DNA of 64,000 nt, taken from the NCBI GenBank assembly GCA_034401795.1, contig CM067372.1, forward strand, positions 38,630,861 to 38,694,860. Direction: 5' to 3'. The notes beneath the pieces are model-generated. The model ran no database searches. It had not been told where the DNA came from and saw nothing but the letters and a program-made list of their open reading frames with translations. Below, in pieces: positions 1,590-54,724 of this stretch; the stretch's first letter is position 1, and the number at the start of each line of letters is the position of its first letter. Origin of the DNA: Chaetoderma sp. LZ-2023a (Eukaryota > Mollusca > Caudofoveata > Chaetodermatida > Chaetodermatidae). Made by a program: the position numbers and the translations under genes.

Positions 1590-3789
1590 GTACGTAGCAG
1601 AGTTGTAAGATAAGATTTATTGTACCAAACACAGGCCATGAAATTTGGAAAATCTGCCGAACCTAATAATAGGTTACGGATATTTCTTTCACGTAACCAG
1701 TAGTTCAGGTATGTATCTTTCATTTGCATATACTCATTGGTTGACTACCTAATATTGTACTGTCAGAGATTAATATGTACAGCACAGGTGTTTTCCAGGT
1801 TGTTATTTACATGTACGTTTGTTGTAGTGTATGAGTTAGACTATTTTCCACTTGAAAATAAATCAACAGCTTATTTTCACGTAACCTACTTTTGCACTTT
1901 TTATAACCCGCCAAAAAATTTGACATGGTATTATGTAATGGCGCCGTCTGTCGGGGCCATCTTGAAAATTGGTTTCCGGATGATAACTCCTTTACCGTTT
2001 GTCGGAGCCATCTTGAAAATTGGTTTCCAGATGATAACTCCGTTACCGTTTATCGGATCGCTTTGAAACTTCATGGAGTGGTTGGACTAGGTCTGCGGAA
2101 GAAACCTATCGAAATCGATGATGATGCGAAATCCAAGATGGCCGCCAGCCACAGGCAGCCATCTTGAAAATTGGTTTCAGGATGATAACTCCGTTACCGT
2201 TTATCGTATCACTTTGAAACTTCATAGAGTGGTTGGACTAGGTCTGCGGAAGAAACCTATCGAAATCGATGATGATCTAAAATCCAAGATGGCCGTCAGC
2301 CACCAGTGGTCATCTTGAAAATTGGTTTCCAGATGATAACTCCGTTATCGTTTATCGGATCGCTATGAAACTTCATAGGGTGGTTGGACTACCTCTGGGG
2401 AAGAAACCTTTCGAGATTGACAATGATCCAAAATGGCCACCAGTGGCCATCTTGAAAATTGGTTTCCAGATGATAACTCCGTTACCGTTTATCGGATCGC
2501 TTTGAAGCTTCATAGAGTGGTTGGACTAAGTCTAAGGAAGAAACCTATCAAAATCGACAATGATCTGAAATCCAAGATGGCCACCAGCCACCGGTGGTCA
2601 TCTTGAAAATTGGTTTCCAGATGATAACTCCATTATCATTTATCGGATCGTTGTGAGATTTCATAGGGTGGTTCGACTACCTCTTGGGAAGAAACCTATC
2701 AAGATTGGCAATACTACGAACTCCAAGATGGCTGCAAGCCACCGGTGGCCATCTTGAAAATTGGGTTCTAAATGATGTCTGTTTTTTCGATCCCTTTGAA
2801 CTTCATAGGGTGGTTGGACTAGGTGTGGAGAAGAAACCTATCAAAATTGACGATGATCCAAACTCCAAGATGGCCGCCAGCCATGGGCTGCCATCTTGAA
2901 AGTTGGTTTCTGGATTTCATTTATTGGATCACTTCCTATGGTCGTTGGAATATGTCTGGTGAAGAAACTTATCAAAATTTACGATAATCCGAAGTCTAAT
3001 ATGGCTGCCAGTCAGCAGCAGCCATCTTGAAAATTGGTTTCCGGATGATACCTCCTTGACCGTTTAGCGGATCGCTTTGACACTTCATAAGGATGACTGG
3101 TTTGATGGGGCTGTGGAAGAAATAAATATTTTCTGATAGCTCTCATTCATTGGTTTGTCATCATGGCAGGGTATTATGCGTCAATTGCGGAGCTCTTGTT
3201 GGGATAGTATTTTTCGATTGATTTTGCGTAACCAACATAGGAAATATTGATTTGGTTATACCAAATTCCGAGGTCTGCTGAAACACAATCCGATTATAGT
3301 ACACTCAACAATATTGTTTAACCATATACTTGTTATTATTGGTCAAGAAAATATTTGTTTAGTAAATGTCCATTGGCAGGCTAAGACAAGACTGTTTTTT
3401 AAATTTACCATTGGAATGACTCGCTTGTTTATCCGGCTTCTTTATCATTGTACACTCACCGATAAAGTTTAACCCTGTACTGTCTGTGTGTGTGTGTGCG
3501 TGTGCGTGCGTGCGTGTGATTCATATATATATTAATTGTATTTTCTAACTTTATTTTAAATAATTAGTAGTAAAGTTTTACTTGCGTCATGTTGACATAA
3601 TAACATGAACAACATCGACTCATTTACTTCTCCAAAGTGTCAGCCGCCATCACACCGCTATATCGTCTTAAGCTAGGATTGCATTAACGTGTATGCATAT
3701 CCCTATGCCTATGCGTATCCGAATGAGTGATTCCATTTGTATGTATGCGTATGCGTATCCGAAAGTAGAGTTTTTATTCAATCAATTGG

Positions 3790-3847
<58 letters not shown>

Positions 3848-6800
3848 TGAATATGTTCTAAAATAGTTTATCAGTCTTTCAGTGAGTTTCACATTCCAGC
3901 GTGCTTACTATGAATTTAACTTATATATTGGAACACATGTACAGAATAATAGTGCCGATTTGGGGAAAGCCCATGAATGACGTAATGAAAACGTCATTTT
4001 CAAGGAAACCCACATCCGAATGGTGTCTATCCGAATGAAATCGCTACATGTAGCGATCGGATTCGGATACTGACAGGTTTTGCATATGCATATGGACATA
4101 TGGAATCATACTATCTATTTGTAATGGGAGCGAAAAGAAATTTGGATACGCATACGCGTTAATGGAATCCTAGCTTTACACACTGGCAGATTTCTGGGTA
4201 GTGATGAGTTCCAGCTATAACAAGAGCAAATGTAAACTGTTTAAAACATTAACAGCATCCATATAAAAATGAGAGATAAAAGCTTAACCCTTTAACACTC
4301 AAATTTATTAAAGAAAATTTCAAATTTTCTCATAGAAAATGTCCATTTGCAGACCGAGAGAAGATTGTTTTTAAAAATTTACCACTGGAATGACTGGCTT
4401 GGTTATCGAGCCAGTCATTTCAGTGGTAAATTTTCAAAAATAGTCTCCTCTGCAAATGGACATTTCTCAAGACTACTGCAGAAGCTGTTTTTGGCTGATA
4501 CGAGTGTTAGGGGGTTAATGTAGTGAATAGTCTCTCAAAGAGTCAAACTCATTGCTATTTGATATGAAATGTATCCTACTTGTTTACTAAGGTCTCATCT
4601 GGCCATCGCTAGACCGAGTTCCTGATGAGACCTTACTAAGCGTGTGTTAGATGAATGGAGAGCCCGGTGTATGTGTTAATTCTGTCTATGTTACTTTTGC
4701 AGGTTTTATAGCTGCTGACATCAAAGGTACCGGTTCTTGGACACAACTGCTTCTTATCACAGACTATCATGATCTCGGATCTTTATATGACTATTTAAAT
4801 GAAAATATGCTGGACAAGAATGAAATGTTGCAATTATGTCACACGGCATCGTGTGGTTTGTCACATCTTCACACGGAGATATTCGGAACACGAGGTAACG
4901 TTCGTGCTTTATCAGACAGACAACACACGGGGTGTTAGTGAGAGTTAACTCGTTAACACACAAATTTGTTCATGTCAGAAAATGTAAATGGGCAAACCTA
5001 GAGAATTTTTTTTTAATTTACGACGGTTATTGAGCCAGTCATTCCAGTGGTAAACGTTCATAAATAATCTTCACTTAGTCTGCAAATGAGCATCTTAAGA
5101 CCAGTGCAGAAGCTGTTTTTAGCCGATGAGTGTGAAAGGGTTAAAATAATGAACTACATTATATATTACACTTATTAGCTACCGTATTTCATTTCTGCAC
5201 AACAAAGCACTGCACTATTTCTCTGTACTGACTGAATGTATTATAAACCAGAAGTGTGTTGTTTTAGCAATCATTCACTAACCTTGTCCATACAGTTGGT
5301 TAACTATAACATGGTTTAGTGAACTTGTCTTATAGTAATTCTTTTTTTTTCTTCTTTTTTTTTAGGCAAACCTGCTATGGCTCACCGAGACATCAAAAGT
5401 AAAAATATTCTGGTTAAGCGACCAGGGGTGACGTGTATAGCTGATCTCGGACTGGCTGTGAAATATAACAGGTACAGAGATTATCATCACGGCAGTCTTC
5501 TCGGATGGGACTTTAAACTGAGGTCCCGTCACACAGTGCCCATCACTGTGTGAACGTGAGCTAGGGTTAGGTAGGCAAGAAATTTCGGCATAGTCAAAGT
5601 AAACCGGATGCTGAATGGATCCCTCCTCGGATGGAACCACGCAACATACGGATTACAAAACCAAAACCAAATTGCTAGAATTAGAATCTTTCGGAATTTT
5701 CGAGGGGACTATGGAGGGATGTAACCCGGATGACTGACCGAGTTCGTCCTCGGACGGACACAGTCACCATACGGGCTACCTAACCAATCAAAATCAAACA
5801 AGTGCGCGCTGGTGCCTGCTCGGATGATGGCCAGAAGACCAAATGGGTCCCAGGACCCGAAAGACCCCACACCCCAACCTCCCCACTCCCCCCAAAGGGG
5901 CCGGGAGGTCTCTGACCTAAAGCCCCCCCCCCTTGGGTGCATCAGGTCATAAGACCGTACGCACCTCCCCCGACCCAACACCTACCCCATCCCTTACCCA
6001 CCCCTGTTAGGTCCAGGTTAGGCCATCCCCATTACACACGCCCAAGCATGAGGAGCAACAAAAAAAAAGCCATGGAAAAGAACAGCAACATGAGACAAAA
6101 TCGAGAGACAACGATCAACACACACACACACACACACACACACAGAGAGAGACACAAGCTAATGCACAAACCGACGTCACAAGAATTCACAAGAATTCAA
6201 CAGAAACCATAAAGGCCAGGCGTGAGTCTAGACCCTAGCATTGGGAACTGGCATATAAACGCCTCAAATATTACAACACACACCACACACACACTATCAT
6301 CACGGCAATAAGATTTTAACCTTCAAATTTGTTCAAGAAAAATTTTAATTTCTCAAAGAAAATGCCAATTTGCAGACCAAGAGAAAACAATTTTTGAAAA
6401 TTTACCACTTGAATGACTGTCTCGGTTATCGAGCCAATCATTGCAGTGGGAAATTTTCTAAAATACTCTTCTCTTGGTCTACACATGGACATTTCTCATG
6501 ACCATGGCAGAATCTGTTTTGGACGGTTTGAGTGTTAAACAGTAACTTTATTAGTGAAAGTTCAGGCTTAATGCGTTCTTCCATGAAACCTCCGTTTCAA
6601 GACGATTTAAAAAAGAATTCAACTAGAGACTGTCGCTAGTTTATGCAATAAGGCAGACCCGCCAACTAGAGTAGCTCAACGCGATCTTGTGTGGCAAGGG
6701 AGACAACTCTTAACTAGTGTAGCTCCCCTAAAGGGACACAACTCTTGTACAGTCCAGTAAGTTCATTTCAAATTAGTTTCAAAATATTCAGCAGGTTTCC

Positions 6801-9800
6801 CTATATAGTTGTATAGTTGATAATCTGAGCCAGTCATTCCAGTGATAAATTAAGAAAGACTTCCCCTTGGTCTGCAAATGGACATTTTCTATGATAGAAA
6901 TTCAATTTTCGTGAACAGATTTTAGTGTTAAAGTTTTAATGGTCAAGCTTGGTCAAGAAGAGGCGAGGAGAAGCCTATTTTAAGCAAACAATTGTTGAGA
7001 CAGTTATTCCAGTGATAAATTTTCAAAAATCCTTTCTTGGCCTGCAAATGGATATTAGAAAAAAGGCTGAATGTGTTGACCATGAGAGGGTTAACGCACT
7101 AATAAAACTTGTTTTTCTTTGCAGTGATGCCAATGAAGTTGATATCGCGCCAAACACGCGGCAGGGAACCAAACGTTACATGGCTCCCGAGGTGCTAGAT
7201 GAGACGATCAATACGTCACACTTTGATTGCTACAAGCAGGCTGATATGTATTCATTTGGACTTGTACTTTGGGAGATTTCACGCAGGTGTATTATACAAG
7301 GTGAGACTTCATCTATTATGCTTATATATCGTGTCACTGGACATTTGTCCTCTCATGATTAAAACCTTACATGTTAACACTTTAATGGTCAAGCCGGCCA
7401 AAACCGGCCTCTACTGTGGAATGTCCATTTACAGGTCAAGAGAATACAAATTTTTTTTTTTTTCCTGTCATTCCAGTGATACATTTTTAAAAATTGTATT
7501 CTTTTGACCTGTAAATGGACATTTAATAAGCAGATATTTAGATTTTCTTGACCAAATTTCACCATTAAAGGGTTAAGTAGATGAGTGTCAAGCCCTCGTG
7601 TTTTGCTTGTTTCGTTTTTATTTTATTTATGTATCCTGGAAATGTTACATTTGTACTCTACTGTACTTGAAAATGCTTAGACATATTCTGTTCAAATTTA
7701 GTACATGTGTACTGTGTGTGAGAACCTAAGTTATGATTGTGTTTCAGTCAAATCTGGAGTAGGGTCTGATTCAGTGCCATAATTTCATTCTTCATTGTTT
7801 AATTTAAGATGCCGCACAGAGCATGGTCATTATGCGATAGTGCTCATCATCTGTCTGTCTGTCTATCGATTTATCTGATTCTTTTTCGCATTTATATTAG
7901 GGAGTGATGCGGTGCCATGATTTCATTTCGGCGAAATCGATCCATATAAGCTAGACTTATCTCCCCTGAAAACCATAAGATTTATTAAAGATGTTCTTGT
8001 CGGGTTCAGATCTCGATTCTTTTTTCAAGGGATATATTATGAGGAAACGCAATATATTGATTTAATTTCACTTAAATTCATCTGTATTGACCAGTGTTAG
8101 CGGCCCGAAAAGCAATAAAATTTATAAATAATTTGTTGTCTGGTCAAGATCCCCACGATTTTTTAGCCTACACCTGTAATTAATTTTAAGCAAATATATT
8201 GTTGGAATCGCAGTGGCATGATTTCATTTCAACAAAATCTGTCCAGATCTGCCTAATTCTGGCAAAGTAACTCAGAAAAATGTTTAATTCATCAAAATGT
8301 TCTTGTCTGGTCCAGATCTTGAAGTGGTTGAAAGCTAATCAAAAATCTGTTTCAATGGATATATAATTGGAGAAGCAGGGGCATGATTTGCTTTGTGGTG
8401 ATCCATCCATATCTACCAGAGTAATCTCCCCTGACACAATCACAAACTAAATTCACATTTATCTTTACCATTCCGCCAATGTGTGAATTTTGTGGACATA
8501 GATCGTTTCACTAAAACTCTTCTTCTAAAGTATGGTCTTTTCCCGTTAATGATATGTCAACTCTCGGTGTGTGCAATGTTTGTGTCCGGTGAAATATACC
8601 ATCTTCTTATGGCTCTTGTTTTTGTATAGGTATTGTGGAGGAATATCAGATTCCTTATTATGACTGCGTACCCAGTGACCCAAGTTTTGATGACATGAAA
8701 AAAGCAGTTTGTCTTGATAGACGTCGACCAGAGATCCCTAATAGATGGAGTGGAGATGAGGTGAGTTAGAGTAAAGGGATTGTAAGGCCTTATAAATATT
8801 ATCAATATTATTATTATCTCCACTCAGGATTTGATACTTTCACAGCTGGTTTGAGATTTAAAGGCGTCATTAAGACACTCTTAATATTTGTGATTTTTAT
8901 CGGCACCGAGAAATTATTAATGAGGTTGTAATTATGTTATGCTATTGTTTGCATGATGCAATTCACCTTTCCAGAGTGTCCATCCATCATCTTACCGCGT
9001 ATAATGTCATAATCATCTCAGTGCGTGTATGATGACATCACAATCATTACGTCACAAAGAATTCCATATAGACTGTCACCAAATCTCAAATACTCCGACA
9101 CGTTGTATGAATTGTATGTCTTTGTAATTCTTTGCTATTGAAGAAACATGCTGTTGAATATTTTGAAACTAATTTGACTGGGTGCTGTTGAGGCAGCAAC
9201 AGCACCCAGTCAAATTAGTTTCACACTCAGTCAAATTAGTTTCAAAACATTCAAAATCTTAACTGTAGTTTTCTTGAGATCGATAGTCAGGGAGTTCAGA
9301 GATCGATCGATCCGAACACGAGCGAGGTGTGGGTGAAGCTTAGCTAGAGATGGGCGGGGCATAGCTAAAAATGGAAAGGTCCATTACCATTCAAGACTTC
9401 ACTGTTGTGTGCAGCAGGTGCGACCCTTTGCTGCCGATAATGGTCCAGGCCACCTTGCTTACTCCAGACTGTATTGGCCCAGGCCACCCCATATACTTTA
9501 CCAATGGTAATGATAACAAAATCTTTCCTGGAAGAGTGCTCTCCCCTTAGTCGCTAGCCATCTGTTATGCAGGCATATTTGTGTGGTGAAAGATGCGTTG
9601 ACATTATTTTAAGACGTTTGGCACGTTGGCCATCCGCCAGATGAAGTAATATCGCAAAAAATCATCACAGGGCATATGGAGATTTAATTTATAATTACAT
9701 AGCATTGTCAGATATGCCCTTGGTAAAGTATGTGCCGTTGCACTCTGGAATGAGACGTAATTTCATTTATTTCACCAAAGATTTTCATGATTTTCTGAAA

Positions 9801-12800
9801 AATGCCAAATTTATGGAAAGTTTTGAAAATTAATTTAGTCCACACAGAACATTGCATAAATATATTCAGGCTTAAAAGCGTTAATGGTCATGGCGCCTAA
9901 AATTGTGTAAACCTGTGGTTGTTATTACACCACAAAAACATCCATTACCGTTCAATCACTACTTGCTAAATCAAATATCTGCATTTAGCTATCAGAATAA
10001 AGTTTTTATTCTTGCCTATACACTCCCTAATGCCTATACCATCACCATGTAGACCCTCCACCAGGCTTTTGGTAGAGGGACCCCCTGCATTAGCCTTACA
10101 ATAGACTGGCACCAGTCTATACTCACTCCTTGGTGACGCTTGTCACTAAGCACGCTCGCGCATGCGCAGTAGGTCCCACTTGTGAAAACTGAAGCACTTT
10201 TCAAATATTCTGCTAGCTATACAGTACTGTCAGCTATCAAATCGATATAAAAGTTTTAGCTTGCTAACTAGAAATTTTCCAGTTATCACGAGTTGACTCG
10301 GGAATGCCTACCATGAAGTCTGTTCTTCCTAAGTTATGTTTAACTTATATATCATGGTGTTTTAGAGGTGTTTGTAACTCTAACGTTTGGAGTTACCAGT
10401 TTTCGTGTCACTACTCCCGTTTTCGAGGTTAGAGTAACCATGCCTATTATATACCATCAAGAGATAACCATGTAGTAATAATAATAGCCAGTACCACTCC
10501 TAGTAACGTAGGTCCTAGTGCTCTCAAACATATATCAGAATCTTTACTGATTCTTTCTTCAAACACTTTATTTAAATAGGCCAAGGCGTAGCGTCTGTGA
10601 TATCTCAGGTTTGCTTAAAGCTAGTTGCTTTATTTCGCATCATTTCTTATTTTTTATAGGAAGTGTCAGTATCTTCTGAGAAAATAAAGTGTACGTCGAA
10701 TAAGTGTGATCGGGTTCACGCTAAGGATTATACGGGGCATGTTTGCCTGAGGTGTACCACCTGCACCCCTTTAAAAATGTGTGGAGTGTGCAAGGGTTGG
10801 CCATTGGTCGTATCTAAAGCGTTTTTTAAGGATTTCGTGGTTAAGCCTGCATTGCCCTCAAGTCGCTCTCCCTCCGTTGTTGAAGGTCCTAAAGCAGTAA
10901 CATCTGCTTCCACCTCTATTAATACGTCGGGTTCAGCAAAGGAGGGGGGCAGCTCCTCTATCACAGATCCGGTTATGGCATTATTCGCCAGATTTGAATC
11001 CTTCGCAAATGTATTGACGAAATCTTTAGACGAGCGTATTACATCTGCTATTAAGGCCGCTAAAGAGGAGTCATCAGACTCCGAATTTAGCCCTCAGTCG
11101 CGATCTCGTAAATGGGGAAAGCCGGTTTCCTTAACATCAAGACAACAAATCAAGTCTCCCAAAGGAAAGTCCGGCGAGACAAGAAAGAAACCTGGTAAGG
11201 CATCCTCCGGTAGGAGCCAGGTCAAAGACCATGTTAGACTTGAGGACCAGCTTAAGTCTCAAGCGGTGGTATTGGGGGCGGAAGCTTCCGATGTGTCACC
11301 TCAAGCTAAGGTCCGGTTCACAGTGATTCCAATTGCAAGGAAGGTGGTAAGATCGCCGATCGCCTCTAAGGAAGCACCCGTCTATGCTCCTGGCTTGTCC
11401 GGGCAAGCGGGTTTGCTGTCCGGAATGTCTTCTGGTTTTACCGGGCATCCGGAAATGAGCACCGTTATTGTTTCTGGCTTGGCTGAACATCCGGTGACTC
11501 ATGAGAATATGGCTTATGCGTCAACATCCGTTTCCGGTTCTTCAGTATCCGGCTATAGAGTTTCCGGTTCCGGGAGGAACAATGTAGTTCCGGGTCTGTT
11601 GGACCCGGCGGTGCATCATATGGCGTCTTCCGTTTCCGGTTCGTCGACTTCCGCTTCCGGTAGTAGTGCTGCTACTTCCGGTAGGAAGAATGGGCATCCG
11701 GGTCTGTTGGACCCGTCTATGCACCGTTCAGTGTCCGGATTGTCAGGCTCTTCTTCCGGTAGTAGTGTGACTACTTCCGGTGGGAATTATGCTTATCCGA
11801 GTCAGTTGGATCCGTTGTTGCATACATCCTCCTTTTCCGGCCCAGTTTTGGTTAGTTCCGGTTCCGGCGGTGGTGTAGACACTTCCGGTCCAACTTATGC
11901 ATGTCCGGGTCGTTTTGACCCGTCCTTGCAAGCGACTTCCGGTTCCGTTTCGGGGTTTCCTATTTCCGCTTCTGGTGACAGTTTTTCTACTTCCGGATTA
12001 GGAGATATGAAGCGTTCTATTTCCGGTCTCGGTGTTTCAGTCCCGACGGGAACTTCTGTTTATGCATCAAGTTATGAGCTGCCGAATAACTCAGATTCCC
12101 AGTCCAGTAATAGGTCTGTTAATTCCGATTCTAGTTATTTTTGCGCCGGTCCTCCCGTTTTTGATAGACATTATTCTGATCGTTCTTCTAGTGCTCAGTC
12201 TGTTTCGGCGTCAGATTCTGGTCAGCATTCCTTTCGTGAGGTAGTATCTCTCTCTCGTTCTTCATCTCCTTCCTTGTTCTCTCAAGCAGGTTCTCAGAAG
12301 AGTAGTAGTCATCCGTCCTCTTCGTCTGTATCTGGCTTGTCTGCTAGGGATTTTTCGTCTTCTCATGTTTCTAATTCGTCTTCTCTTTTTCATCCATCAT
12401 CTATATCTCCGCCTCCAGGTTTTCTTCATATTCCGGCTTCCCTTCAGCAGAATTATTCTGCGCAGTCTCACATACCTTCTTCTTCTGATCCGTCTGTTCC
12501 TACTTTGCCTTCTTATTCTTCATCTTCTCCGGAGTTTGATCATTCGGATCCTATTGTTTCGGTCGTTCTGTCTCCAGAATTAGAGTTCCAGATAGTTGAT
12601 TCGGGTTTAGATTTTTCCTTGTTTTCAGTAAGCCGCGATTCCTCTCTTCACCGATCTGTTATTTCAGCTAGATTTTCAATTTTGTCCAGATTTTCAGCTA
12701 GTGAGTTGGATCCTTATTTTTTCAGTTCTAGTCAGCCTGAGGCCCGTGTTGCTAGTGCTTATCAGTCTCCATTGACGTTGGACACTCTCTCGGACGCTCC

Positions 12801-15800
12801 TTCTAGAGCTTTAGCTTCTCCTTCCTCTCTGAGGATCGTGGATGCTTCTGTTTCGCTAGATTCAGACATCTGTCCTCCTCCTTCTTCTTCTTCTTCTTCT
12901 CCGTCTCACCTTTCTGTCAAGGCTACTCAAAGATCAGTCAGGGCCAGGGATCTGAAGAGGTTCTATCACGAGAGGGCCTCGCCAGATGACTGGTCTAGGG
13001 CTCATCAATGGATAGCTTCGTCTCTATCTCTTCCTCTTCAGGATGAATTTTCGCTTGATCCTCCGTCGTTTGGTTCTGCGCTGTCATCTTCAGTCTCTTC
13101 AGCTAATGTTCCTTCTGTTCTTCCGGTAGATAACTTGGTAGTAGACATGTTAGATTTTTACATTAACGATGTCCAACTGAAAGATTTTTCTCTTACTCCC
13201 AAGGTAGATGCTCCAGTTCAGATTCCGAAAGAGGATTACATTAGATTGGCTTCTACTCAATCTCTTAATGGTCCGACATGGGATGTTCTTTCATCGCATC
13301 TGAAGGAAGCGGCTAAGGTAGAATCTTCATCAGACCTTTTTAGATGGGAGTCTGTCTGTCGGGCTCAGTTGATGTCAGCAAACTTTTTGGCCCTTCTTTC
13401 AGAGGCTATGCTCAAAACTCACGAGAAAGGGGGTCAGGTTCCTCCGGAGATATTTCGTTCGTTAGTTGACCTGTCAAGAGGTTCGTTGAATTCAGTTTGC
13501 CGTTCACTAGGTTTCATCACCTCTAAGAGAAGGTCAAGGAAGCTTGCTGAGGTGAATATTTCTGATTCCCTCAGGAGTAACCTGATATCTGCTCCGCCTT
13601 TCGGATCAGATATTTTCGGTCAGGATTCTACATCGATCTTTAGGGCGGAGTCTGATCGTCTCAGATCAGATAAGGATCTGCGGGATCAGATTTCGGTTTT
13701 GAGGCCGTCAGTTAAAAGGGACTCTTCTGCGGTGAAGAGTCCCTCCTCCTCTCCCAGGAGGAAGAGTCTTAGGCCGGATGAATATGGGGCTTATCCGTCA
13801 AGGGTGTTTACGAACTCTAATCGGTCCTCTCCTTCCCATTCCAGATCTGCGGAGGAGGATCGTTTTAAATCCATTTCATCTCATAGACCTAGAGCCCAGG
13901 TTCGTCAAGCCCCTCCTCAGGCGAGAAGGGGTCAATTTTTCTCTCGAGGTTACAGGTCTAGTTCTAGAGGACGCTCCTCTAGAGGTTTTCAACCTAGACG
14001 GGTTTGAAGGGGTGGCCTCAGCCCGGGCAGGCCTTTCCCAATCTCATTTACCAGTCCTTCCTCCTCTTCTACAACTTTTGGATCTATCGGTGCAATCCCT
14101 TCTTCCCAGCATGCCAGTAGGAGGGCGCTTGTCTCTGTTCTGGGAGACATGGAAAGCCCTTGCTCAGGACTCCTGGCTGTTAGATCAAATCCGCTGGGGT
14201 TATGCTCCGTCTTGGATAGAACTGCCTCCTCCTCTGTCTTACCAGCCCAAATGGACTCCAGTTCCATCCAATCTGGAGAAGTTGGTAGCCTTGGAAGACG
14301 AATTGGAGTCAATGTGGTTGAAGAAGGCTATAGAAGAGGTTCCATGTTGGAGAGTAGACCCGGGATTCTACTCAACTCTATTTCTAGTCCCCAAGAAATC
14401 AGGTGGATGGCGTCCAATCATCAATCTGAGGAGATTAAATCTGCATATATCCACCCCAAAATTCAAGATGGAGACGGTATCTCAGATTATCGCCGGTCTG
14501 AGTCCAGGCATGTGGACAGCGTCCATAGATCTCAAGGACGCCTATTTTCACATTCTCATCCACCCTCCATTCAGAAAATTCATGAGATTCGCGTTCAAGG
14601 GGAGGGTATGGCAATTCAGAGTCATGCCGTTCGGCTTGACCACGGCCCCTTTCTTCTTCACCCGCCTAGTGTCAGCAGTGGCAGGTTTTCTGCACAGTCG
14701 TTCTATTCCCCTTCACGTTTACATAGACGACTGGTTGCTAAAAGCAGAATCTGCCTCAATTCTGGCAAGCATCATTCCAGAGGTCTGCAGTCTGGCTTCC
14801 AGTCTAGGATGGGTTTTAAATCTAGAAAAATCATCTTTGGTCCCGTCTCAGGTTTTCACCCACCTAGGTGTGGCTTTCGACCTTGGTCAAGGCTTAGTCT
14901 TCCCTTCAGAGGTAAGAGTAGAAGCAATCCTAGTAGCCATGGAAATTCTGGCTTCCTCTGCCGTGGTCAGAGCAATATTCTTTCTCCGGGTGATAGGCTT
15001 GATGGTCAGCGTCGAGAACATCATTCCGTGGGCGGCGCTGATGAGGAGACCTTTCCAAATGTATCTAATGTCCCTGTGGAAACAGTCGACCCATTCAGTG
15101 TACCATCAGATCCCGGTCAGAGATCATTTGAGGCCCCATCTAGATTTTTGGAAGGATCGCTCTCTGCTGATGATGGGTGTTCCTCTGGTCAAGTCTTCTC
15201 CTCAGGCGGTCATTTTTACAGATGCTTCCCAGGAGGGATGGGGAGCAGTCTGGGGTTCCCTTTCGGTCTCAGGCCTGTGGTCCCGAGAGGAGTCGTCAGC
15301 CCACATCAACATTCTGGAATTGTGGGCTGTCAAGAAGACTCTCCTTGCCTGGTCGGATCAAGTGCAGGGCCTCAAGATCTCGATTCGATCAGACAATTCC
15401 ACAGTAGTCTTGTATATCAACAAGCAGGGAGGCACGAAGTCGTCTCGCCTGTGTTTGGAGGTGTGGAATCTCCTCATGTGGTGTCGTATGAAGCAGATTT
15501 TCCTGGTGTCCTCCCATGTACCAGGATGTCTGAATTTTCTGGCGGATCAGTTGTCTCGCCCTTCCAAATTCGCCCACACAGAGTGGCAGTTAAAGAGGTC
15601 GGTTGTCAAAGCGATCTTCAACCTCCTGGATCGTCCCCATGTAGACCTGTTCGCGACCTCTCTGAATGCCCAGATCTCCTCTTTCATGTCTCCTTTTCCG
15701 GACGATCAGGCGTTGGCGGTGGACACCCTGGCTCAGTCCTGGACAGGAATCTTCGCGTATGCGTTCCCTCCGACTATCCTGCTTCCCCTGGTTCTGAAGA

Positions 15801-18800
15801 AAGTCAAGGATCAAGTATGCGAGATTTTGTTGATAGCTCCATTTTGGCCAAAAAGGATCTGGTTCGTAGACCTTCTCGATCTTCTAGTAGACTTCCCACG
15901 TCTGCTGCCAGTGTCCCCAGATCTGTTATCCCAAGTAAGGGGAAGGTGCCTTCATCCAAACCCAGGAATCTTCAGTCTGTGTGTTTGGAGAATATCGAGT
16001 GCTCGGTCACTGAGAATAAATTTTCTGCAAGGTCTCAGGAAATTATTAATTCGGCCAGGAGGGAGTCGACCCGAAGAGTTTACAAGGGTCGACTTAAGAT
16101 ATTCGGAGAATGGTGCTCAAATCATGATCTCGTGCCCGATTCTGTTTCTATATCCCAAGTGTTAGACTTTTTATCTTATCTGTTCGATTCCCTTCATCTG
16201 ACTGCTAACACGGTTAGAGGATATAGATTTTCCTTAGCATCTTCTCTTCCTTGTTTGTTAAATGCAGATGTTAAGGATACTAAGGTGCTGAATGGGTTCA
16301 TCAGAGGTTTAGGTAATATTCGGCCTCCTATTGCTAAACCGTTACCTTCCTGGAACTTGGCGCTGATTCTTCAGGTTTTGGCAGGGCATCATTTTGAACC
16401 TATCGCCTCGATTAGCTTAAAGCTTTTAACTTTTAAGGCGGTTTTTCTAGTAGCGGCTGCTTCTGCTAGAAGACGATCTGAGATCCATGCATTTTCCGCT
16501 GAAAAGGATAGATTTATTGAAGCTGGGGACGGTTTGGTATTATATCCTAGAAGGGATTTTTTGTCAAAAACGCAATCAAACCGTTATCCAGCTAAGCCGA
16601 TTATTTTAAATTCTTTATCTTCGTTTTCTCCGTCTGACAGATTTTGGTGTCCAGTCAGAGCTCTTAAGGCTTATAAGCGTCGTACCGATTTTAAAAGATC
16701 CGATCCGTCTCATTTATGGGTTCCCTACGCGGAAGGGGTAGCCAGACCGGTCTCTAAAGCTTCCATCGCTAGATGGATTTGTGACACCATTCAACTATGC
16801 TACGAGATTGCTTCTCCTGAGCAAGTCAATCTCTCTCACATTAAGGCTCATGATGTTAGAGGGATGGCTACCTCTTTTGCTTTGTTTGCTGGCTCTTCTG
16901 TAGACGAAGTTATGCAAGTTGCAGGATGGAAATCTGAGTCTACTTTTACCTCTTTTTATTTGAAAGACCAGAGCGCAGCGGCATCTTTCTTTAGGAACAT
17001 TACTATTTTAACCAAGAAGGCTGAAGACCATTTACCAAGCACATCCCACCATTTTCGTTAGGACTGTGCGTCTGCGGAGAATGGTGAGAGTTATTCCTTG
17101 GTTGTTGGTTTAAATCTTTATGTTTAAAGTTTTATTTGGTTGTTAATCACTGTGTGATTGATTAGGATGCACCATTATGTTATGTTATTAACATTTGTTT
17201 ATGTTTGGTTTGATTTTTATCCTTGCTTATGGATTCTCAAATCACCTCCCACCAAAGTTTCGTAGTGGGGCACTGACCAAATCTACGGGTTTAGCAAGTA
17301 GTGATTGAACGGTAATGGATGTTTTTGTGGTGTAATAACAACCCCCAACAGACCCCCCTTTAGTGGGTTGGTCTGTAGTTTTATTAACCACTATAAAAAC
17401 ATACTTACCGTTCAATCACTACGACCCGGCCTCAGCCACCCCGCTGGGTATTGATTTGAGAATCTAGGCTGGATGTACAGCACTTAAATTTAGAAAAGTG
17501 CTTCAGTTTTCACAAGTGGGACCTACTGCGCATGCGCGAGCGTGCTTAGTGACAAGCGTCACCAAGGAGTGAGTATAGACTGGTGCCAGTCTATTGTAAG
17601 GCTAATGCAGGGGGTCCCTCTACCAGAAGCCTGGTGGAGGGTCTACATGGTGATGGTATAGGCATTAGGGAGTGTATAGGCAAGAATAAAAACTTTATTC
17701 TGATAGCTAAATGCAGATATTTGATTTAGCAAGTAGTGATTGAACGGTAAGTATGTTTTTATAGTGGTTAATAAAACTACAGACCAACCCACTAAAGGGG
17801 GGTCTGTTGGGGGTTTTGAGAAATGTCCGTTTGCAGACCAAGAGAAGATTTTCGAAAACATAGCATTGGAATGACTGGCTCAGTAATAAAGCCAGTCATT
17901 CCAGTAGTAAGTTTTCTAAAATATTCTTGCTCTGCAAATGGAAATTTTTTTTCCCAGGTCAAAGGGTCAAATATCTATGTCACAGTATTACTAAGCAATA
18001 ATTGTGGAGTGCAAGAAGGTAGAATCACTAGATTTTGCTCAGCCCATCATATTGCTATTGTTTAGAATAAATATCTATGTCAAGGGGAGGGGACCCCTGG
18101 TAAATGCATTGGCAAAGTAAGGCATAGAGTCATCAGTAGACTCCCCCCCCCCCATCAGTAGACTCCCCCCCCCCCCCCCATCCTGTCACTTTTCACCAAT
18201 ATCAATCATGAGCGACCATACAGGGAAGCTGTTGAATATTCTGACTGATTTGACTGGGAACTGTTGCTGCAGTAAACCACTAGTCCAACTCCTGAATCCA
18301 TTTCCTCACTCAATCAGGCTGATGCCATAATCATGACATCATGAATGACTCGATATAGACCGTCTTTACCTCTTAACAGTCCGACATGTTAGACGAATCA
18401 TATGTCTTTACCATTTAATAAACATTCTGTTGAATATTTGGAAACTAATTTAACTGGACGCGGCATCAACAGCGTCCACTCAAATTAGTTTCAAAATATT
18501 TAACAGCTTGCTTGGATAGTTTTCGGGAAATGAATAGTCAGGTTTTTCAGAGATCAATTCATCCCAACACGGACAAGGTGTGGGTGGAGCTTAGATAAAG
18601 ATGGGCAGGGCATAGCTAAAACTGGAATGGTCCATTACTTTCATAATATTCAACAGAATGTTTCATATATTTATTTGCTAGCTTCTCTATGGTGATGAGA
18701 ATGCTATAACGGGGGTACTGATGTCAGTTTAATTTCATATATTATATTTTATTATGACTATCCAAATGTTTAATAACCGTGGTGTTGTACTTTCAGTATT

Positions 18801-19680: not shown

Positions 19681-19895
19681 TTAACCCTTTAATACTTAAT
19701 CTGGCCAAAAATATATTTTACAGTGTTCTTGAGAATTGTCCATTTGCAGGACAAGTGAGGACTTTTTGAAAATTAGCCACTGAAATGTCTGGCTTGGTAA
19801 GCGAGCCAGTCATTCCAGTTTTATTTTTTCAAAAAAGTATACTTGTCCTACAAATAAGCAAATATTGTGATTTTCCTGACCAAATTTGAGTATTA
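19681..19895. mobile_element. Family A palindromic MITE
   Basis: Begins TTAACCCTTTAATACTTAA and ends gagtattaa. Arms 'tgtccatttgcaggacaag' and 'cttgtcctacaaataag'. Directly followed by another copy. Confidence 0.7.
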
Positions 19896-19898
19896 AAT

Positions 19899-20116
19899 CT
19901 AACCCTCTAATTTGTTCAAGAAAATTTCAATTTTCTCACAGATAATGTCCATTTACAGACCAAGAGACTATTTTTGAAAATTTACCATTGGAATAACTGG
20001 CTTGGTTATCGAGCCAGTCATTCAAGTGGTAATTTTTCAAAAATAGTCTCATGGTCTGTAAATGAACATTTCTTAAGATCATTGCAAAAGCCGGATTTGG
20101 CTGTTATGAGTGTTAA
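19899..20116. mobile_element. Family A palindromic MITE
   Basis: Tandem with its neighbours. Its right boundary TTAACCC is also the left boundary of the next copy. Confidence 0.7.
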
Positions 20117-20335
20117 CCCTTTAGCACTCATATGAGCGAAAACGGCTTCTGCAATCGTCTTCAGAAATGTCCATTTGCAGACCAAGAGAAGACTATTTTT
20201 GAAAAATTACCACTTGAATGACTGGCTCGATAACCAAGCCAGTTATTCCAATGGTAAATTTTCAAAAATAGTCTTGTGGTCTACAAATGAGCATTTCTCA
20301 AGACCACTGCAGAAGCTGTTCTGCGGGTTAGTTAG
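20113..20335. mobile_element. Family A palindromic MITE
   Basis: Starts TTAACCCTTTAGCACTCA. The last arm ends 'ccactgcagaagctgttct' and then decays. Confidence 0.7.
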
Positions 20336-22470: not shown

Positions 22471-22705
22471 TGACCCTTATCCTTCAAATTTATTCAAGAA
22501 AATTTCAATTTTATAGAAGTTGTCCATTTGCAGACCAAGAGAAGACTATTTTAGAAAATTTAGAACTGGAATAACTGGCTCCGTTATCGAGCCAGTTATT
22601 CGAGTGGTAAATTTTCAAAAATAGTCTTCTCTTGATCTGCAAATGGACAATTCCAAAGACCACTACAGAAGCTGTTTTTGGTTGATATGAGTGTTAAAGG
22701 GTTAA
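22471..22705. mobile_element. Family A palindromic MITE
   Basis: Full hairpin; ends gagtgttaaagggttaa, the TTAA being shared with the following copy. Confidence 0.7.
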
Positions 22706-22895
22706 TGGTCGAATCAATCAAAACCAGCCTTTGCCATGGTCTTGAGGAATGTCCATTTGCAGGCCAAGAGAAGACATTTCTTAAAAATTATCATTGAAAT
22801 TCCTGGCTTGATAACCGAGTCAGTTATTCCAGTGGTAAATTAAAAAAAATAGTGTTCTCTATAAATGGGCTTTCAATAAACAAATATCTTAATTT
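22702..22895. mobile_element. Family A palindromic MITE, 'ttaatggtc' subtype
   Basis: Adjacent to the previous copy and sharing its TTAA. The second arm is partly decayed. Confidence 0.65.
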
Positions 22896-28929: not shown

Positions 28930-29283
28930 TTATGATATCACATCACATGTAGTCTGATGACATAATCAATTACGTCATGAGTGACATAATTAACCCGTCA
29001 CAAATGCTTAATATTCCATCAAGTTGTATGAATTGTATGTCTACTATTTAATAAACATTCTGTTGAATATTTTGAAATTAATTTGACTGGGCACTTTTGC
29101 TGCCGTAGGCTGCAACAGCACCAAGTCAAATTAGTCTCAAAATATTCAATGGCTTACCAGTAATGTTTTCTGGAAATGTAGATTCAGGGAGTACAGGGAT
29201 CGATCAATCCCAACACAGGCAAAGCGTGGTTGGAGCTTAGCTAAAGATGGGCGGGGTATAGCTAAAACTGTATTCCTCCATTG
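28930..29283 (+). mobile_element. Family B element
   Basis: 'caattacgtcatgagtgac', 'gttgaatattttgaaattaa', palindrome around 29070-29150, 'gggatcgatcaatcccaac', 'gatgggcggggtatagct'. The left TIR is not clear. Confidence 0.6.
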
Positions 29284-30302: not shown

Positions 30303-31026
30303 CAGGTGGTAGTTTAGCCCTGGGAAGTTTTGCTGATCACATCTGCAAATAAAGATTAATATCGATCAATGCTATAGTTAATTTTTCAGTCGGCCATTAC
30401 TAAACTGATGACATTTCTTTCTTGTCATTACCAGCTCATTTGCTTCAGTACAGATTGTGATATGCTGAGATCCCCACAAAATAACCATATATGCATGAAA
30501 TCATGCTGAGAACGAATTTAAAGCACCTAGTACTGATTATAACAAAGCTACCGTCGTACATGTTAGGATGTATACTGCAAAATCACTCGTCAAAGATATT
30601 TTAATATAAAGCAATTAAAAGTATTGTCAGTCATTTTGTACCTACACAGAGCAAAATTGCTGATTTAGAATATGCAGTACATGTAACAGTATCTCTGTCA
30701 GTATCTGATATATGGGTCAATTTTATAACTAATCAGTATCTCAACAAAACCAGTCAGTGACTTTACTGGTACTCATGCACTGGTATCTATTGCAAAAATA
30801 GCCAACAGGAAGGGAGAAAAGTTGTGTTGAAAACTTTCTACTAGATGTAGTCGCATGAGAGTCTCTTGTCTATAAGTGGCTTATTGTAATATAAATGAAG
30901 TTTTAGAAATATTTGTCCATTTCCAGAGCATGTCATATATAAATACATGTAGTTATCTCCCCTGTTTCATTCATGGATGCAGGGAAAGATGGACCTCACC
31001 AACATGCTGAAAGTTATACCTCTGTG
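30303..31026. other. Intergenic, no gene seen
   Basis: AT-rich, nothing recognised. Confidence 0.4.
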
Positions 31027-31260
31027 TTTAACCCTTCAACTCTCACGCCGGCCTTAAATGCCTTTGGGCAATAGTCTTGAGAGATGTCCATTTGCAGACC
31101 AAGTGAAGACTATTTTTGAAAATCCATCACTTGAATAACTGTCTTCATTACTGTGCCAGTCATTCCAGTGGTAAATTTGTAAAAATGATATCCTCTTGGT
31201 CTGCAAATGGACATTTTCTATGAGAAAATTGAAGTTTTTTAGAGCAAATTCAAAGGTTAA
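31027..31260. mobile_element. Family A palindromic MITE
   Basis: TTAACCCTTCAACTCTCAC to 'caaattcaaaggttaa'. The TTAA is shared with the next copy. Confidence 0.7.
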
Positions 31261-31486
31261 CCGTCGAATTTGTTCAAAAAAATTTCAATTTTCTCTTAGA
31301 AGTTGTCCATTTGCAGACCAAGGGAAGACCGTTTGAAAATTTACAATTGGAATGGCTGGCTCAGTTATCTAGCAAGCCATTCCCATGGTAAATTTTGAAA
31401 AATTGTCTTCTCTTGGTCTGTAAATGGACGTTTCTCAAGACCACATCAGAAGCCATTTTTGGCTGATGTGAGTGCTAAAGGGTTAA
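31257..31486. mobile_element. Family A palindromic MITE
   Basis: Shares TTAA with the copy on its left; ends gagtgctaaagggttaa. The last full copy before a ~32-kb gap in the family's distribution. Confidence 0.7.
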
Positions 31487-31614
31487 GACACAAAATCAAA
31501 CTCTCTAAATGTCTGTATTTTCTCCATAGAGTAACGTAAGTTTGTGATCATACCACCGCAATGTTGGTCACTGAGCTTCAGGAAAAGGGAGATAATCATT
31601 GGGGGTCCTAGTGC

Positions 31615-32364: not shown

Positions 32365-32745
32365 AGTTCCTCAGGCAATCGTGATGTCATAATAAACTAT
32401 GTGACGTGTAGGAGGATGTCATAATCAATTATGTCATGAATGACAGGCTATGATCGTCATGAACGCTTAATTGAAGACGGATTAAACGGTGTTGTACGAA
32501 TTGTATGGCTTTACGATTTAATAAACAGACTGTTGAATATTACGAGACTAATTTGACTTGGCGGTGCTTCTGCCTATGGTAGCAGCAACACTCAGTCAGA
32601 TTAGTTTGAACATATTCAACAGCTTACCCGTATAGTTTTCTGGAAATTGATAGGCAGGGAGTTCATGGATCAACACGGGTGAAGTGTTGGTGGAGCTTAG
32701 CTAGAGATGGGCGGGGCCTAGCAAAAACTGGAGTCCTCCATTCCT
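32365..32745 (+). mobile_element. Family B element
   Basis: Ordered motifs: 'cgtgatgtcataataaac', 'gtcatgaatgac', 'gttgaatattacgagacta', palindrome, 'gagatgggcggggcctagc', 'actggagtcctccatt'. Confidence 0.6.
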
Positions 32746-35838: not shown

Positions 35839-36467
35839 CTGTAAAGCTTAGTCCTTCAGGCTGGCTGCCAAATAAGCCCCTTTCGCTTCCGTATCCAGCC
35901 CATTCTTGCAATCGTCTTCATTTAGTTTCACCAAAGGGTTTGTCTATTCGGGAGGTAAGATAATGTTTCCAGGTGATCTGGAAGTTCGACTATAATGTCT
36001 TCAGCTGCTCGTTTAAGATATGATATTCATTATAGTCAGACTTCGTGCTCTCTATGAAAAACCGCTTCCAAAGCAGGTGAAGAGTCTGTTAGTGAGTCTG
36101 TATCATCTTTACTCTCCTCTCAGACTGGTGTCCTGGAATGTTGCTGTTGCTGCGAACACAATTACTGAATCTCTTACTCTGTACATCACTAAGCAGATCA
36201 TGAACCCGCTAGGATCTACCTGAAAGATCAAGAGGTTACGCCAAACTGTCCTCCAGAATCTGTATTTTTGTCCTGGAGTCATACGTCTAATTTGTTAGAG
36301 CTGAAAGCTTGTTAGAGCTGAAAGCTACTTCGAATCATTTGATAATGATCAACTTTTGGCCCTGACATCTGACATCACATGTCATAGATGTCGCTCTCAT
36401 CAGAAACTGGTGACGGACAGAGATGGCAGCATTTGGTGCATGACTGGATGTGGATTGTGGAATCGTA
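35839..36467. other. Possible decayed coding patch, unassigned
   Basis: The + strand at about 36355-36465 reads LTSDITCHRCRSHQKLV and SIWCMTGCGLWNR, with CxxC and CxxxC spacing. It runs straight into minisatellite array 2. No start, stop or splice context. Treated as unresolved. Confidence 0.25.
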
Positions 36468-37462
36468 AGAAACCTATCGAGGTTGAAACTGATCCGAAAT
36501 TAAAGATGGTCGCCAGCCAACAGCGGCCATCTTGAAAATTGGTTTCCAGATGATAACTCTGTTACCCTTTATCGGATCGCTTTGAAACTTCATAGAGTGG
36601 TTGGACTGGAATTGAGGAAGAAACCTATCGAAATCAACAATGATCCAAATTCCAAGATGGCCGCCAGCCACTGGTGACCGTTGAAAATTGGTTTCCAGAT
36701 GATAACTCCGTTATCGTTTATCGGATCGCTATGAAACGTCATAGGGTGGTTCGACTACCTCTGGTGAAGAAACCTATCAAGATTGACAATGATCCAAAAT
36801 CCAAGATGGCCGCCAGCCACTGGTGGCCATCTTCAAAATTGGTTTCCAGATGATAACTTCGTTACCGTTTATCAGATCGCTTTGAAACTTCATAGGGTGG
36901 TTGGACTAGGTGTGGAGAAGAAACCTATTAAAATTGACAGTGATCTGAAATTCAAGATGGCCACCAGCCATCATCTTGAAAATTGGTTTCCGGATAATAA
37001 CTCTGTTCCCGTTTATTTGATCGCTTTGAAACTTCATAGGTTGGTTGGACTAGGTCTGGAGAAAAAAAACCTATAGAAATTGACGATGATCCGAACTCCA
37101 AGATGGCCACCAGCCACGGGCTGCCATATTGAAAGTTGGTTTCTGGGAGATATCTCCATTACCATTTATCGGATCACTTCCTAGGGTCGTTGGAATATGT
37201 CTGGTGAAGAAACTTATCAAAATTTACGATAATCCGAAATCCAATATGGCTGCCAGTCAGTGGTGGCCATCTTGAAAATTGGTTTCCGGACAATACCTTC
37301 TTGACCGTTTAACGGATCGCTTTGATACTTCATAAGGATAACTGGTCTGATGGGTCTGAGGAAGAAATAAATATTTTCTGAAAGCTCTCATTCATTGGTT
37401 TGTCATCATGGCGGGGTATTATGCGCCGTTTGTGGAGCTCTTGTTTGGATAGTATTTTTCGA
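36468..37462 (+). repeat. Minisatellite array 2, same family as 1952-3218
   Basis: About six units of 143-150 bp restart at 'cttgaaaattggtttcc' (near 36530, 36680, 36830, 36972, 37122, 37268). Same orientation as array 1, and the same non-repeated tail (37270-37462: 'tcataaggataactggtctg', 'gaaataaatattttctgaa', 'catcatggcggggtattatg'). Confidence 0.85.
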
Positions 37463-39499: not shown

Positions 39500-40890
39500 G
39501 GCCCCCCCCCCCACACACCGAAGTCCTATAGTATTCACCACGTCTGTCCGTCTGTCTGTCCACAATATCTCGTAAACAGCATATCATACAGAAACGCTTC
39601 AGATATGTTAATGAAACGTGCTGTATGCCTCAGTTATGATACGCAGATGTGCCTTTTGAAGAATTCACGTTTATAGGTCCAATATCTTGGGTGAAAATGG
39701 GCTTTTAAATGCAAAAACACGATTTTTGTAAATTTTCTCGTAAACACAACATCATACAGAACGGCTTCAGATATTTTAATGAAACGTGGTGTATGTCTCA
39801 GTTATGATACGCAGATGTGCATTTTGAAGAATTCACGTTTATAGGTCCAATATTTTGGGTGAAAATGGACTTTTTAATGCAAAAACACGATTTTTGTCAA
39901 TTTCCTCATAAACACTATATCATACAGAATCGCTTAAGATAATTTAAAGAAACTTGGCAGATGGCTTCTTTATGATTGGTAGATGTTCCTTTTGAAGGAT
40001 TCACGTTTACAGGTCACAGATTGTGGGTGAAAAAATGGCTTTTTAATGCAAAAGCTCGGGATTTCTGTCTATTTTCTCGTACGCACCATATCATATAGAA
40101 TTGCTTAAAATAAGTTAGTGAAACTTTGCACATGTCTCAGTTAGGATCCGCAGACGTACCTTTTGAAGGATTAACCTTTATAGGTCCAAGATTTTTGGTG
40201 AAAATTGTTTTTTAATGCTAAAACTCACTAGTTTTGAATCGCTTAAAATAATTTAATGAATCTTTGCGGGTAGTTTCTTTATGATGGGTAGAGGTGCCAT
40301 TTGGAGGATTCAACTTTATAGGTCCCAGAATTTGGGTGAAAATTGTCTTAATACAAGAACTCGTGGTTTTGGCCAATGCTCTCGTAAACAGCATATCATA
40401 TTGAATCGCTTAAAGTAATTTAATGAAACTTGGCAGGTGGTTTCTTTATGATGGGTGGTCTCTTTATGATGTGTAGATGTGCCTTTTGAAGGATTCAGCT
40501 TTATAGGTCCAATATTTTGGGCTAAAATTAGCTTTTCAAAGCAAAAACTCATGATTTTGTCAATGTTCTCGTAATATCATACAGATCGCCTTATGTATTT
40601 TAATGAAACTTGATATATGCCTCAGCTATGATACGCAGATGTACCTTTTGAGGGATTCGCCTTTATTGATCCAGGATCTTGGGTGAACATGGGCCTTTTA
40701 ATACAAAAACTCACGATTTTTGTCAGTTTTCGCATAAGTACCATATCACAGATTCGCTTAAAATAATTTAATGAAACTTGGCAAGTGGCTTCTTTATTAT
40801 GGGTAGATGCACCGTTTGAAGGATTTGCCTGTATAGGTCCAAGGTTTTTGGTGAAAAGGCCTTTTAATGCAAAAACACTTTACTAGTAAT
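39500..40890 (+). repeat. Tandem array, ~165-185-bp units, about eight copies
   Basis: Units restart at 'tctcgtaaacagcatatcat'-like sequence near 39568, 39737, 39904, 40074, 40215 (deleted), 40379, 40567 and 40730. Each has 'taatgaaacttgg', 'tatgatgggtagatgtgcc' and 'ttgaagrattcacgtttat'. Preceded by a C-run and 'gtctgtccgtctgtctgtcc'. Non-coding. Confidence 0.8.
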
Positions 40891-46154: not shown

Positions 46155-47692
<1,538 letters not shown>

Positions 47693-48086
47693 CCTTTCCA
47701 GAGTATCCATCTATCACGTGACGTCATATGACGTCATAACCAGCTAAACGGCGTGTAGTATGACGTCGTAATCATTGCGTCATAAATAAATCTATTTGGC
47801 CCGTCTTTAACTCTTAGTAGTTTGACACGTTGTACGATTTGTATGGCTCTACTTTTAATAAACATGCGGTTGAATATTTTGAAACTAATTTAGCTGGACG
47901 CTGTTGTTGCCATCGGCAGCAACAGCGCCCAGCCAAATTAGTTTCAAAATATTTAACAGCTTACCTGTATAGTTTTCTGGAAACTTATAGTCAGAGAGTT
48001 CAGAGATCGATCGATCCCAACACGAGCGTGGTGTGGGTGGAGCTTAGCTAGAGATGGGCAGGGCATAGCTAAAACTGGAAAGGTCC
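47693..48086 (+). mobile_element. Family B element, well-preserved copy
   Basis: Ends cctttccag / ctggaaagg. Two perfect TGACGTCA palindromes (47719-47726, 47729-47736), AATAAA in 'acttttaataaacatgcg', core palindrome 47870-47960 (gctggacgctgttgttgcc with its complement), 'agagatcgatcgatccc', 'gagatgggcagggcatagc'. Best reference copy for the family in this window. Confidence 0.7.
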
Positions 48087-48559
48087 ATTGGAGCATTTTG
48101 ATCTTACAGTAATGTTGTTCATCAAATGTGAGCATTCTGTCTCTCTCGAAGATTCTTTGTCATCATTTCACAGCTCTTCATTACTATCCAATGGTATTAC
48201 ATTCATGTGCAGAGGCATTAATGATTGGAGGAGGTCCAACCTGAGTTCGTGGAGAATCACCTTCTGGCAGCATTTAATTGAATCCACTTCATCCTGGAAC
48301 ATGTCGGTCTGGTCGTCGGTTGGCTCCTGGTGAGAAAACTCCATGCCATATCTCTGGTGGAACACGGACCTATTTTCTCTTTATCTGGTTCAGTGTTCTT
48401 GCACAAACAGAAATAAAATATTATGTTTTCTGGTTTATCAGAACCCATATGCTAATCTTGAATATTATGGATATCTGAAGGCATCTTCAAAACTCTAGAT
48501 GAGCTTGGTTTAATAGTAACCCTTGCACCGACAACTCCCTGAATAAGTTAATTCTTCAC
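48087..48559. other. Intergenic, no gene seen
   Basis: Short open frames on both strands overlap; none recognised. Confidence 0.35.
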
Positions 48560-52233: not shown

Positions 52234-53065
52234 GTATCTCCCGTTTGTGCGGGAGTAATTTTGGAACTTTTGAATATTGTTCACGAATACATCAAGAACT
52301 AACTCGGAACACGAAATTGTGGTGAGGCCTTTCCTGGCCTAAAATGTGATTCTACAGATGTAGAGGCAGCGATGTTCTTTGGTGGATGACTCGCCAGATC
52401 TGCCGACCACGCCAAAAAGTGGTTATTCAGCCATCCCCGTACTGATGCGCACTGATGTCGTGCAAGTTTATCTAAACTTTTTGACCGCAGCAAAGTAAAC
52501 TTTGCCCGGTATGCCTTCAGAGCTGGCTGACGTACCCCCACACCATTAAGCTTAGTTATGTATCTTCATCCACATTCAACAACCTCCGCTCATGATCGGG
52601 TTGTTGGCAACTTCCATCCGTACCATCGGTGTACGGGAACAGTATTGTTAATTGTATCTCTTGCCGACTACTCGTTAGACATTCTATATTGTGATTACAG
52701 TCCTGAGTTCGATCTGCTCCCGTCATGGGCTGCTTGCGTGAATCCTGTTTGCGGAAACCGGCATGCGGAAACTTTCCAGCTTCCAGGGAACACATGACGT
52801 ATCAATTTCAGTAACACGATAGCCCAGGCTTAAGAATGGCTACCGATTATTCAAGTAACTACACTTTACATTTTAATTATCCCGTTAATTACATCTTTGA
52901 TAAGTGTATCGTATCTGTATAAATGGTCCCGATGACTAAAAGACACATTAACGGTCTTAGGACCGCTAGTTATAATTTCTGTATCTGTTTGTAGTTATTC
53001 TTATTTCCTGTAAGGTGTTTTTGCTAACCGCACCGTAGTAGGTTCCTCAAGCTGTACTATATATA
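52234..53065. other. Interior of the 5.2-kb insertion, left of the Tc1
   Basis: Contains a short stem-loop 'ctcccgtttgtgcgggag'. Overlapping ~80-codon frames on both strands (52299-52797) are not recognised. Confidence 0.35.
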
Positions 53066-54722: not shown

Positions 54723-54724
54723 TA

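Follow-up and report, generated by a model that had tools for sequence, protein, structure and literature searches.

A structurally complete, probably recent DIRS1-like retrotransposon with overlapping genes in Chaetoderma sp. LZ-2023a

Positions 9917 to 17815 of a 64,000-nucleotide stretch of the mollusc Chaetoderma sp. LZ-2023a (GenBank assembly GCA_034401795.1, contig CM067372.1, positions 38,630,861 to 38,694,860 of the forward strand; hereafter the window, whose numbering is used throughout) raise the question of what kind of mobile element lies there, whether it is complete and recent, and how two of its genes can occupy the same DNA. A preliminary description, made from the letters alone, had proposed an apparently intact, very young DIRS-type retrotransposon with ends defined by its own internal complementary region (ICR). 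On the sequence evidence we consider it very probable that this segment is a structurally complete, autonomous DIRS1-like (tyrosine-recombinase) retrotransposon that inserted recently, an assignment based on the repeat anatomy, profile matches and motifs of this single copy. The element is a further member of a well-described class, unusual for its large size and for carrying two genes that overlap in different frames.

Repeat anatomy, coding frames and class

The ends of the element were compared with each other and with its interior, and the anatomy agreed with the preliminary description. Alignment of 9945-10202 with 17493-17750 gave an inverted repeat of 258 nt with the single difference previously counted by eye (257/258), and adding three bases (9945-10205 with 17490-17750) gave 261 nt with two mismatches (259/261), at positions 125 and 259 of the repeat. 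The internal region 17290-17422 is complementary to exactly 54 bp of the left end and 83 bp of the right end, as had been stated: 9917-9970 is the reverse complement of 17290-17343 (54/54), and 17733-17815 that of 17340-17422 (83/83). The E-values of these matches in a BLAST search within the window (~1e-135 for the inverted repeat, ~1e-21 for the left-end match and ~2e-37 for the right-end match to the ICR) exclude chance. The two ICR halves overlap by four bases, AACC at 17340-17343, which are counted in both matches; since GGTT is present at both ends, the element alone fixes its termini only to within 4 bp, so that the earlier claim of base-level termini holds as far as the ends match the ICR but keeps this 4-bp ambiguity. 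The right end is ~37 nt longer than the left, i.e., a right extension is present, and a circle with a single GGTT would measure 7,895 bp. The structural features, including the inverted terminal repeats (ITRs), are as follows.

9917..17815 (+): whole element, very probably DIRS1-like; 7,899 bp including the GGTT of each end; termini placed by their match to the ICR, flanking sequence compared with insertion-free repeats
9917..9944 (+): left outer end, divergent ITR part, only partly like the right end; inside the 54/54 match to the left ICR
9945..10205 (+): left ITR, conserved part; 261 nt, two mismatches to 17490-17750
17290..17343 (+): left ICR (lICR); 54/54 to the left end
17340..17422 (+): right ICR (rICR); 83/83 to the right end; AACC at 17340-17343 contains the predicted circular junction
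17490..17750 (+): right ITR, conserved part, from the alignment to the left copy
17751..17815 (+): right outer end, made up of ~28 nt of divergent ITR and ~37 nt of right extension, the split judged by eye from the alignment

Folded as single-stranded DNA, the ICR (17290-17422) is predicted to form a long hairpin of -37.1 kcal/mol (z -9.98), a stability that none of 200 shuffles reached, with the junction bases adjoining an internal loop. A right-end hairpin did not stand out from shuffled sequences (z -1.16).

Three long frames are open from stop to stop, as previously described. Open reading frame (ORF) 1 lies where gag would be expected and its product is 22.8% serine; the other two carry reverse transcriptase (RT) and tyrosine recombinase (YR) features, with a methyltransferase (MT)-like region in the former.

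10660..14007 (+): ORF1, assigned as gag from its place in the element; a serine-rich frame of 1115 aa between stops, with its first ATG at 10777 and ending in TGA at 14005
11520..11930 (+): four degenerate tandem repeats in ORF1 (repeat family D1), spaced 99-108 nt, 66-74% to the reference copy
13736..16165 (+): RT ORF, 809 aa; RT 14387-14875, RNase H-like ~15200-15430, MT-like region ~15578-16036
14008..17061 (+): YR ORF, 1017 aa; YR core 16039-17058; in the frame of ORF1; first ATG 14149; 14008-16165 overlies the RT frame

The RT matched Pfam RVT_1 (1.5e-19) and carries YIDD at 14720-14731, and the RNase H-like part shows FTDAS, ILELWA and SDNST in order, from 15215, 15311 and 15389. The YR core of 340 aa matched the phrog_1 integrase family (4e-07) over residues 7-303, with an 11-residue R motif from 16468, AHDVRG (H-D-V-R) from 16846 and FTSFYL (Y) from 16945. 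All motifs named in the preliminary description for these three domains were thus located, and we take them to have the catalytic roles it gave them.

Several of the coding results weigh against this identification. The RNase H-like match is weak (Pfam RT_RNaseH 0.0021, 18.6 bits against a curated cut-off of 24.8), and in the MT-like region, where DIRS1-like elements carry a methyltransferase, neither Dam (0.19) nor PCIF1_WW (0.063) was significant; the region's further resemblance to a methyltransferase is our assumption. Pfam matches to the YR were likewise weak (0.0056 for the SAM-like part and 0.17 for the catalytic integrase part), and its structure prediction was unusable (mean predicted local distance difference test score, pLDDT, 39.3). 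The whole ORF1 frame matched no family up to E 1 when compared with Pfam, NCBIfam and PHROGs, and its true start is uncertain because a cysteine-rich stretch lies 5' of the first ATG (10777). Four stretches tested against NCBIfam were likewise without a match up to E 1, and a search of PDB sequences with the YR frame returned nothing up to E 10. A scan of viral contigs, where relatives are hardly to be expected, gave 1 pattern match with the RT/RNase H protein and 10 with the YR protein, none confirmed, and 0 matches to the 26-base ITR/ICR motif. A match of one ORF1 piece to an SprA-related family (0.013) fell below its cut-off and was taken as chance.

A splice-acceptor-like TTTTTTATAG at 10650-10659 stands directly before the ORF1 frame and, with the cysteine-rich stretch 5' of the first ATG, hints at a 5' exon. 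When the corresponding intron was sought, no in-phase donor downstream of an ATG was convincing; the best candidates agree at 6/9 consensus positions but come after very short exons.

For comparison with published elements we drew on the relevant sections of PMC3266345, PMC9210276 and PMC5633606. DIRS1-like elements are there described as having three ORFs, an MT domain, ITRs, a right extension and two ICRs whose overlap is a 3-bp junction, and as integrating without duplication (PMC3266345). The present element has the same set of gag, RT/RNase H/MT and YR ORFs together with ITRs, right extension and two ICRs, gag being assigned here by position and the MT match being weak. An element of PAT, kangaroo or Ngaro type, bounded by split direct repeats, would also combine RT and YR, and a 26-nt direct repeat does occur at 17290 and 17725; this repeat, however, is the ITR/ICR match itself, and in a search for repeats of at least 20 nt it was the only long-range direct repeat in the element, i.e., split direct repeats, a trait of PAT and Ngaro, are absent. 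As the ends are 261-nt inverted repeats and the ICR matches both of them, an arrangement that PMC3266345 assigns to DIRS1-like elements and not to PAT, we regard this alternative as extremely improbable.

An open recombinase frame across the reverse transcriptase gene

The YR frame is the gag frame resumed after one TGA (14005), and it is open across the whole RT gene. That gag and YR share a frame is by itself a one-in-two coincidence, as the RT frame is excluded. The absence of stops was compared with what the RT protein would allow. Over 550 RT codons (14387-16036) the YR frame has 0 stops, whereas synonymous re-coding with gag/YR codon usage leads one to expect 35.3 (standard deviation, sd, 4.4), and shuffling of the region's own codons 18.9 (sd 3.2). 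The reverse test, in which the frame-0 protein was held fixed over 14008-16038, predicted 17.0 stops in the RT frame (minimum 8 in 2000 trials) against 0 observed. In non-overlapping gag, used as a control, the other two frames had 42 and 78 stops against 33.5 (sd 3.5) and 86.3 (sd 6.0) expected, and in non-overlapping YR they had 15 and 31 against 13.8 and 30.1. RT codons ending in T make up 22.5% in the overlap versus 43.4% in the non-overlapping parts.

Could the open frame be an untranslated by-product, due to base composition or to the choice of codons? Serine makes up 18.2% of the overlap product, which lacks a family match, and codons other than stops have shifted as well (frame-0 tyrosine codons 7 versus 15.7 expected, TCN serine codons 68 versus 38.5, both with the region's own codons), so that codon context or amino-acid selection acts besides. 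Against a by-product, re-coding never gave fewer than 17 stops with gag/YR usage or 6 with the region's own codons (2000 trials each), and the third frame over the same codons has 43 stops, above the 32.7 (gag/YR usage) and 34.2 (own codons) expected. We therefore judge a by-product to be very improbable, and selection for an open YR frame to be well supported for this one element by its sequence; a frame so kept open is probably translated.

The apparent constraint on the YR frame extends upstream as far as 14147 at least (P 0.001 over 14147-14386). Upstream of this, 14009-14146 has 0 stops with 1.05 expected (P 0.30), which fits equally a YR start at ATG 14149 or continuation from gag. The context of this ATG, GACATGG, is a good one for initiation. 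Expression of the YR may thus proceed by initiation at ATG 14149 or by readthrough of the single TGA, which would give a gag-YR product. If it were a fusion, translation of the ~2 kb over the RT gene might yield a long serine-rich arm linking the recombinase with the gag particle, whereby the recombinase would travel with the circle of complementary DNA (cDNA), a tentative idea to which we give a rather low probability.

Long ORF overlap is known from half of 28 DIRS1-like elements, among them GaDIRS1 and GaDIRS2 but not SkoDIRS2 (PMC3266345). A non-exhaustive literature search found no selection test on the ORF overlap of DIRS elements; the present result turns a descriptive trait of the group into evidence of a maintained frame in this copy, and raises the question of how the YR is expressed.

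Insertion site and age

17816..17947 (+): right flank, a palindromic repeat with the element at its edge, from the repeat comparison in the window

This repeat belongs to a palindromic family with many copies in the window (17816-17947, 19721-20309, 22478-22873, 31023-31492, 4336-4470 and others). When the flanks are joined at one GGTT, the junction reads GTGGT[T]TTGAG, against GTGGTCTTGAG in typical repeat copies, with no gap, and 17 alignments cross it, two of them non-significant (E 6.8 and 0.018). The left flank was then compared, ungapped, with 13 arms of the repeat, out of 22 when the flank of the element itself is not counted. Of the nine set aside, one is the other arm of the copy at the element, and the rest differ in their outer sequence, mostly with TTTTCTC or a similar end. 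Seven of the 13 share 22-25 of 50 bases with the left flank, whereas at window positions taken every 7 bases the mean is 13.0 and the 99th percentile 20; the arms are not fully independent, as 20160+ and 20301- belong to one palindrome.

The left side also yields points that tell against this reading of the site. Leftward of the junction, 12 of the 17 alignments end after 5-8 bases and 5 go further, six of the 13 arms share just 13-19 of the 50 bases and do not stand out, and over the last 20 bases of the flank only 6-11 agree with the arms. The target trinucleotide GTT occurs in 0/13 arms, while GTC occurs in 10/13, so the interrupted copy would have had GTT already or have been corrected to it. 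We conclude that the left flank is probably, not certainly, the same palindromic repeat as the right flank. No target site duplication was found, as related insertion-free repeats have one site, the comparison being with paralogous copies of thin left-side likeness and not with an empty allele.

As to age, the perfect match of the ICR to both ends and the lack of stops in ~6.3 kb suggest a recent insertion and give the description "very young" a better basis than the inverted-repeat identity on which it also leaned, which for the DIRS1-like group is not an established clock. With counting begun at the ATGs 10777, 13778 and 14149, 995 of the 18,846 single-base changes that are possible in 10777-17058 would put a stop into one or more of the three frames, and no such stop is observed. 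If the copy was intact at insertion and has decayed neutrally since, this bounds its divergence at ~0.9% (95%), or 1.3% with the overlapping frame omitted. An older, immobile copy could owe a youthful look to gene conversion that kept repeats and ICR alike, a process possible between inverted repeats a few kb apart. Random substitution would, however, have introduced 3.3 stops per 1% divergence, and with all three frames open and none seen we hold an older copy to be very unlikely.

Related elements, proposed mechanism and other features of the window

Among the elements of PMC3266345, GaDIRS1, GaDIRS2 and SkoDIRS2 are nearest in junction (GTT, GTT and AAC, as here), and the sizes of conserved ITR, divergent ITR, extension and ICR fall within the ranges of its Table 3. 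The ICR overlap is 4 bp here (AACC, containing AAC) versus the 3-bp junction of DIRS1-like elements, and the HxxR motif is HDVR versus HSTR in 13/28 (PMC3266345). At 7.9 kb the element exceeds the 3,974-6,283 bp of the 28 elements, a difference of degree that applies to this set, longer elements elsewhere not having been searched for; ORF1, at 1115 aa stop to stop with internal repeats, is also unlike theirs (PMC3266345). DIRS-like families of Xenopus likewise have three ORFs, overlap mainly between ORF2 and ORF3, and an ITR and ICR structure, but have TTT termini and measure 4,146-6,224 bp (PMC9210276). Their ORF1 product carries a LAP2alpha domain (~650 aa) (PMC9210276), whereas Pfam scans found no such domain here.

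Circular intermediates of DIRS-1 have been verified experimentally (PMC5633606). For tests of the circle/recombinase model, DIRS1-like copies that are complete and recent and whose insertion site can be read are of use. Observed at this locus are the anatomy, frames free of stops, an ICR that matches the ends exactly and a single junction site in related repeats. Beyond this, the following steps are proposed, for which the Cappello model reportedly provides the parts that go beyond the description of DIRS1-like elements cited above. An element RNA would be copied by the element's own RT/RNase H. The ICR, complementary to both ends of the cDNA, would align them and serve for their completion, which would yield a circle with a single GTT. 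The tyrosine recombinase, made from the frame kept open across the RT gene (from ATG 14149 or as gag-YR through the single TGA), would then exchange the GTT of the circle with a genomic GTT, without target duplication; the target here would have been the edge of the palindromic repeat.

The window as a whole gave 0 matches in a tRNA scan and 0 in an Rfam scan. A Tc1/mariner-type DNA transposon at 53059-54729 has an open 343-aa transposase frame (Pfam HTH_Tnp_Tc3_2 4e-17, DDE_3 1.2e-10) between 31-nt inverted repeats that are 94% complementary. A second dispersed repeat occurs in copies ~70-79% alike (9027-9387, 18316-18638, 28945-29282, 32404-32745 and 47686-48090), one of them on either side of the DIRS element. 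Tandem arrays include a very long AC dinucleotide array at 46155-46772 (309.5 copies, 99% matches), a ~151-bp unit in two arrays ~34 kb apart (2006-3092 and 36467-37334) and a 168-bp array at 39568-40878.

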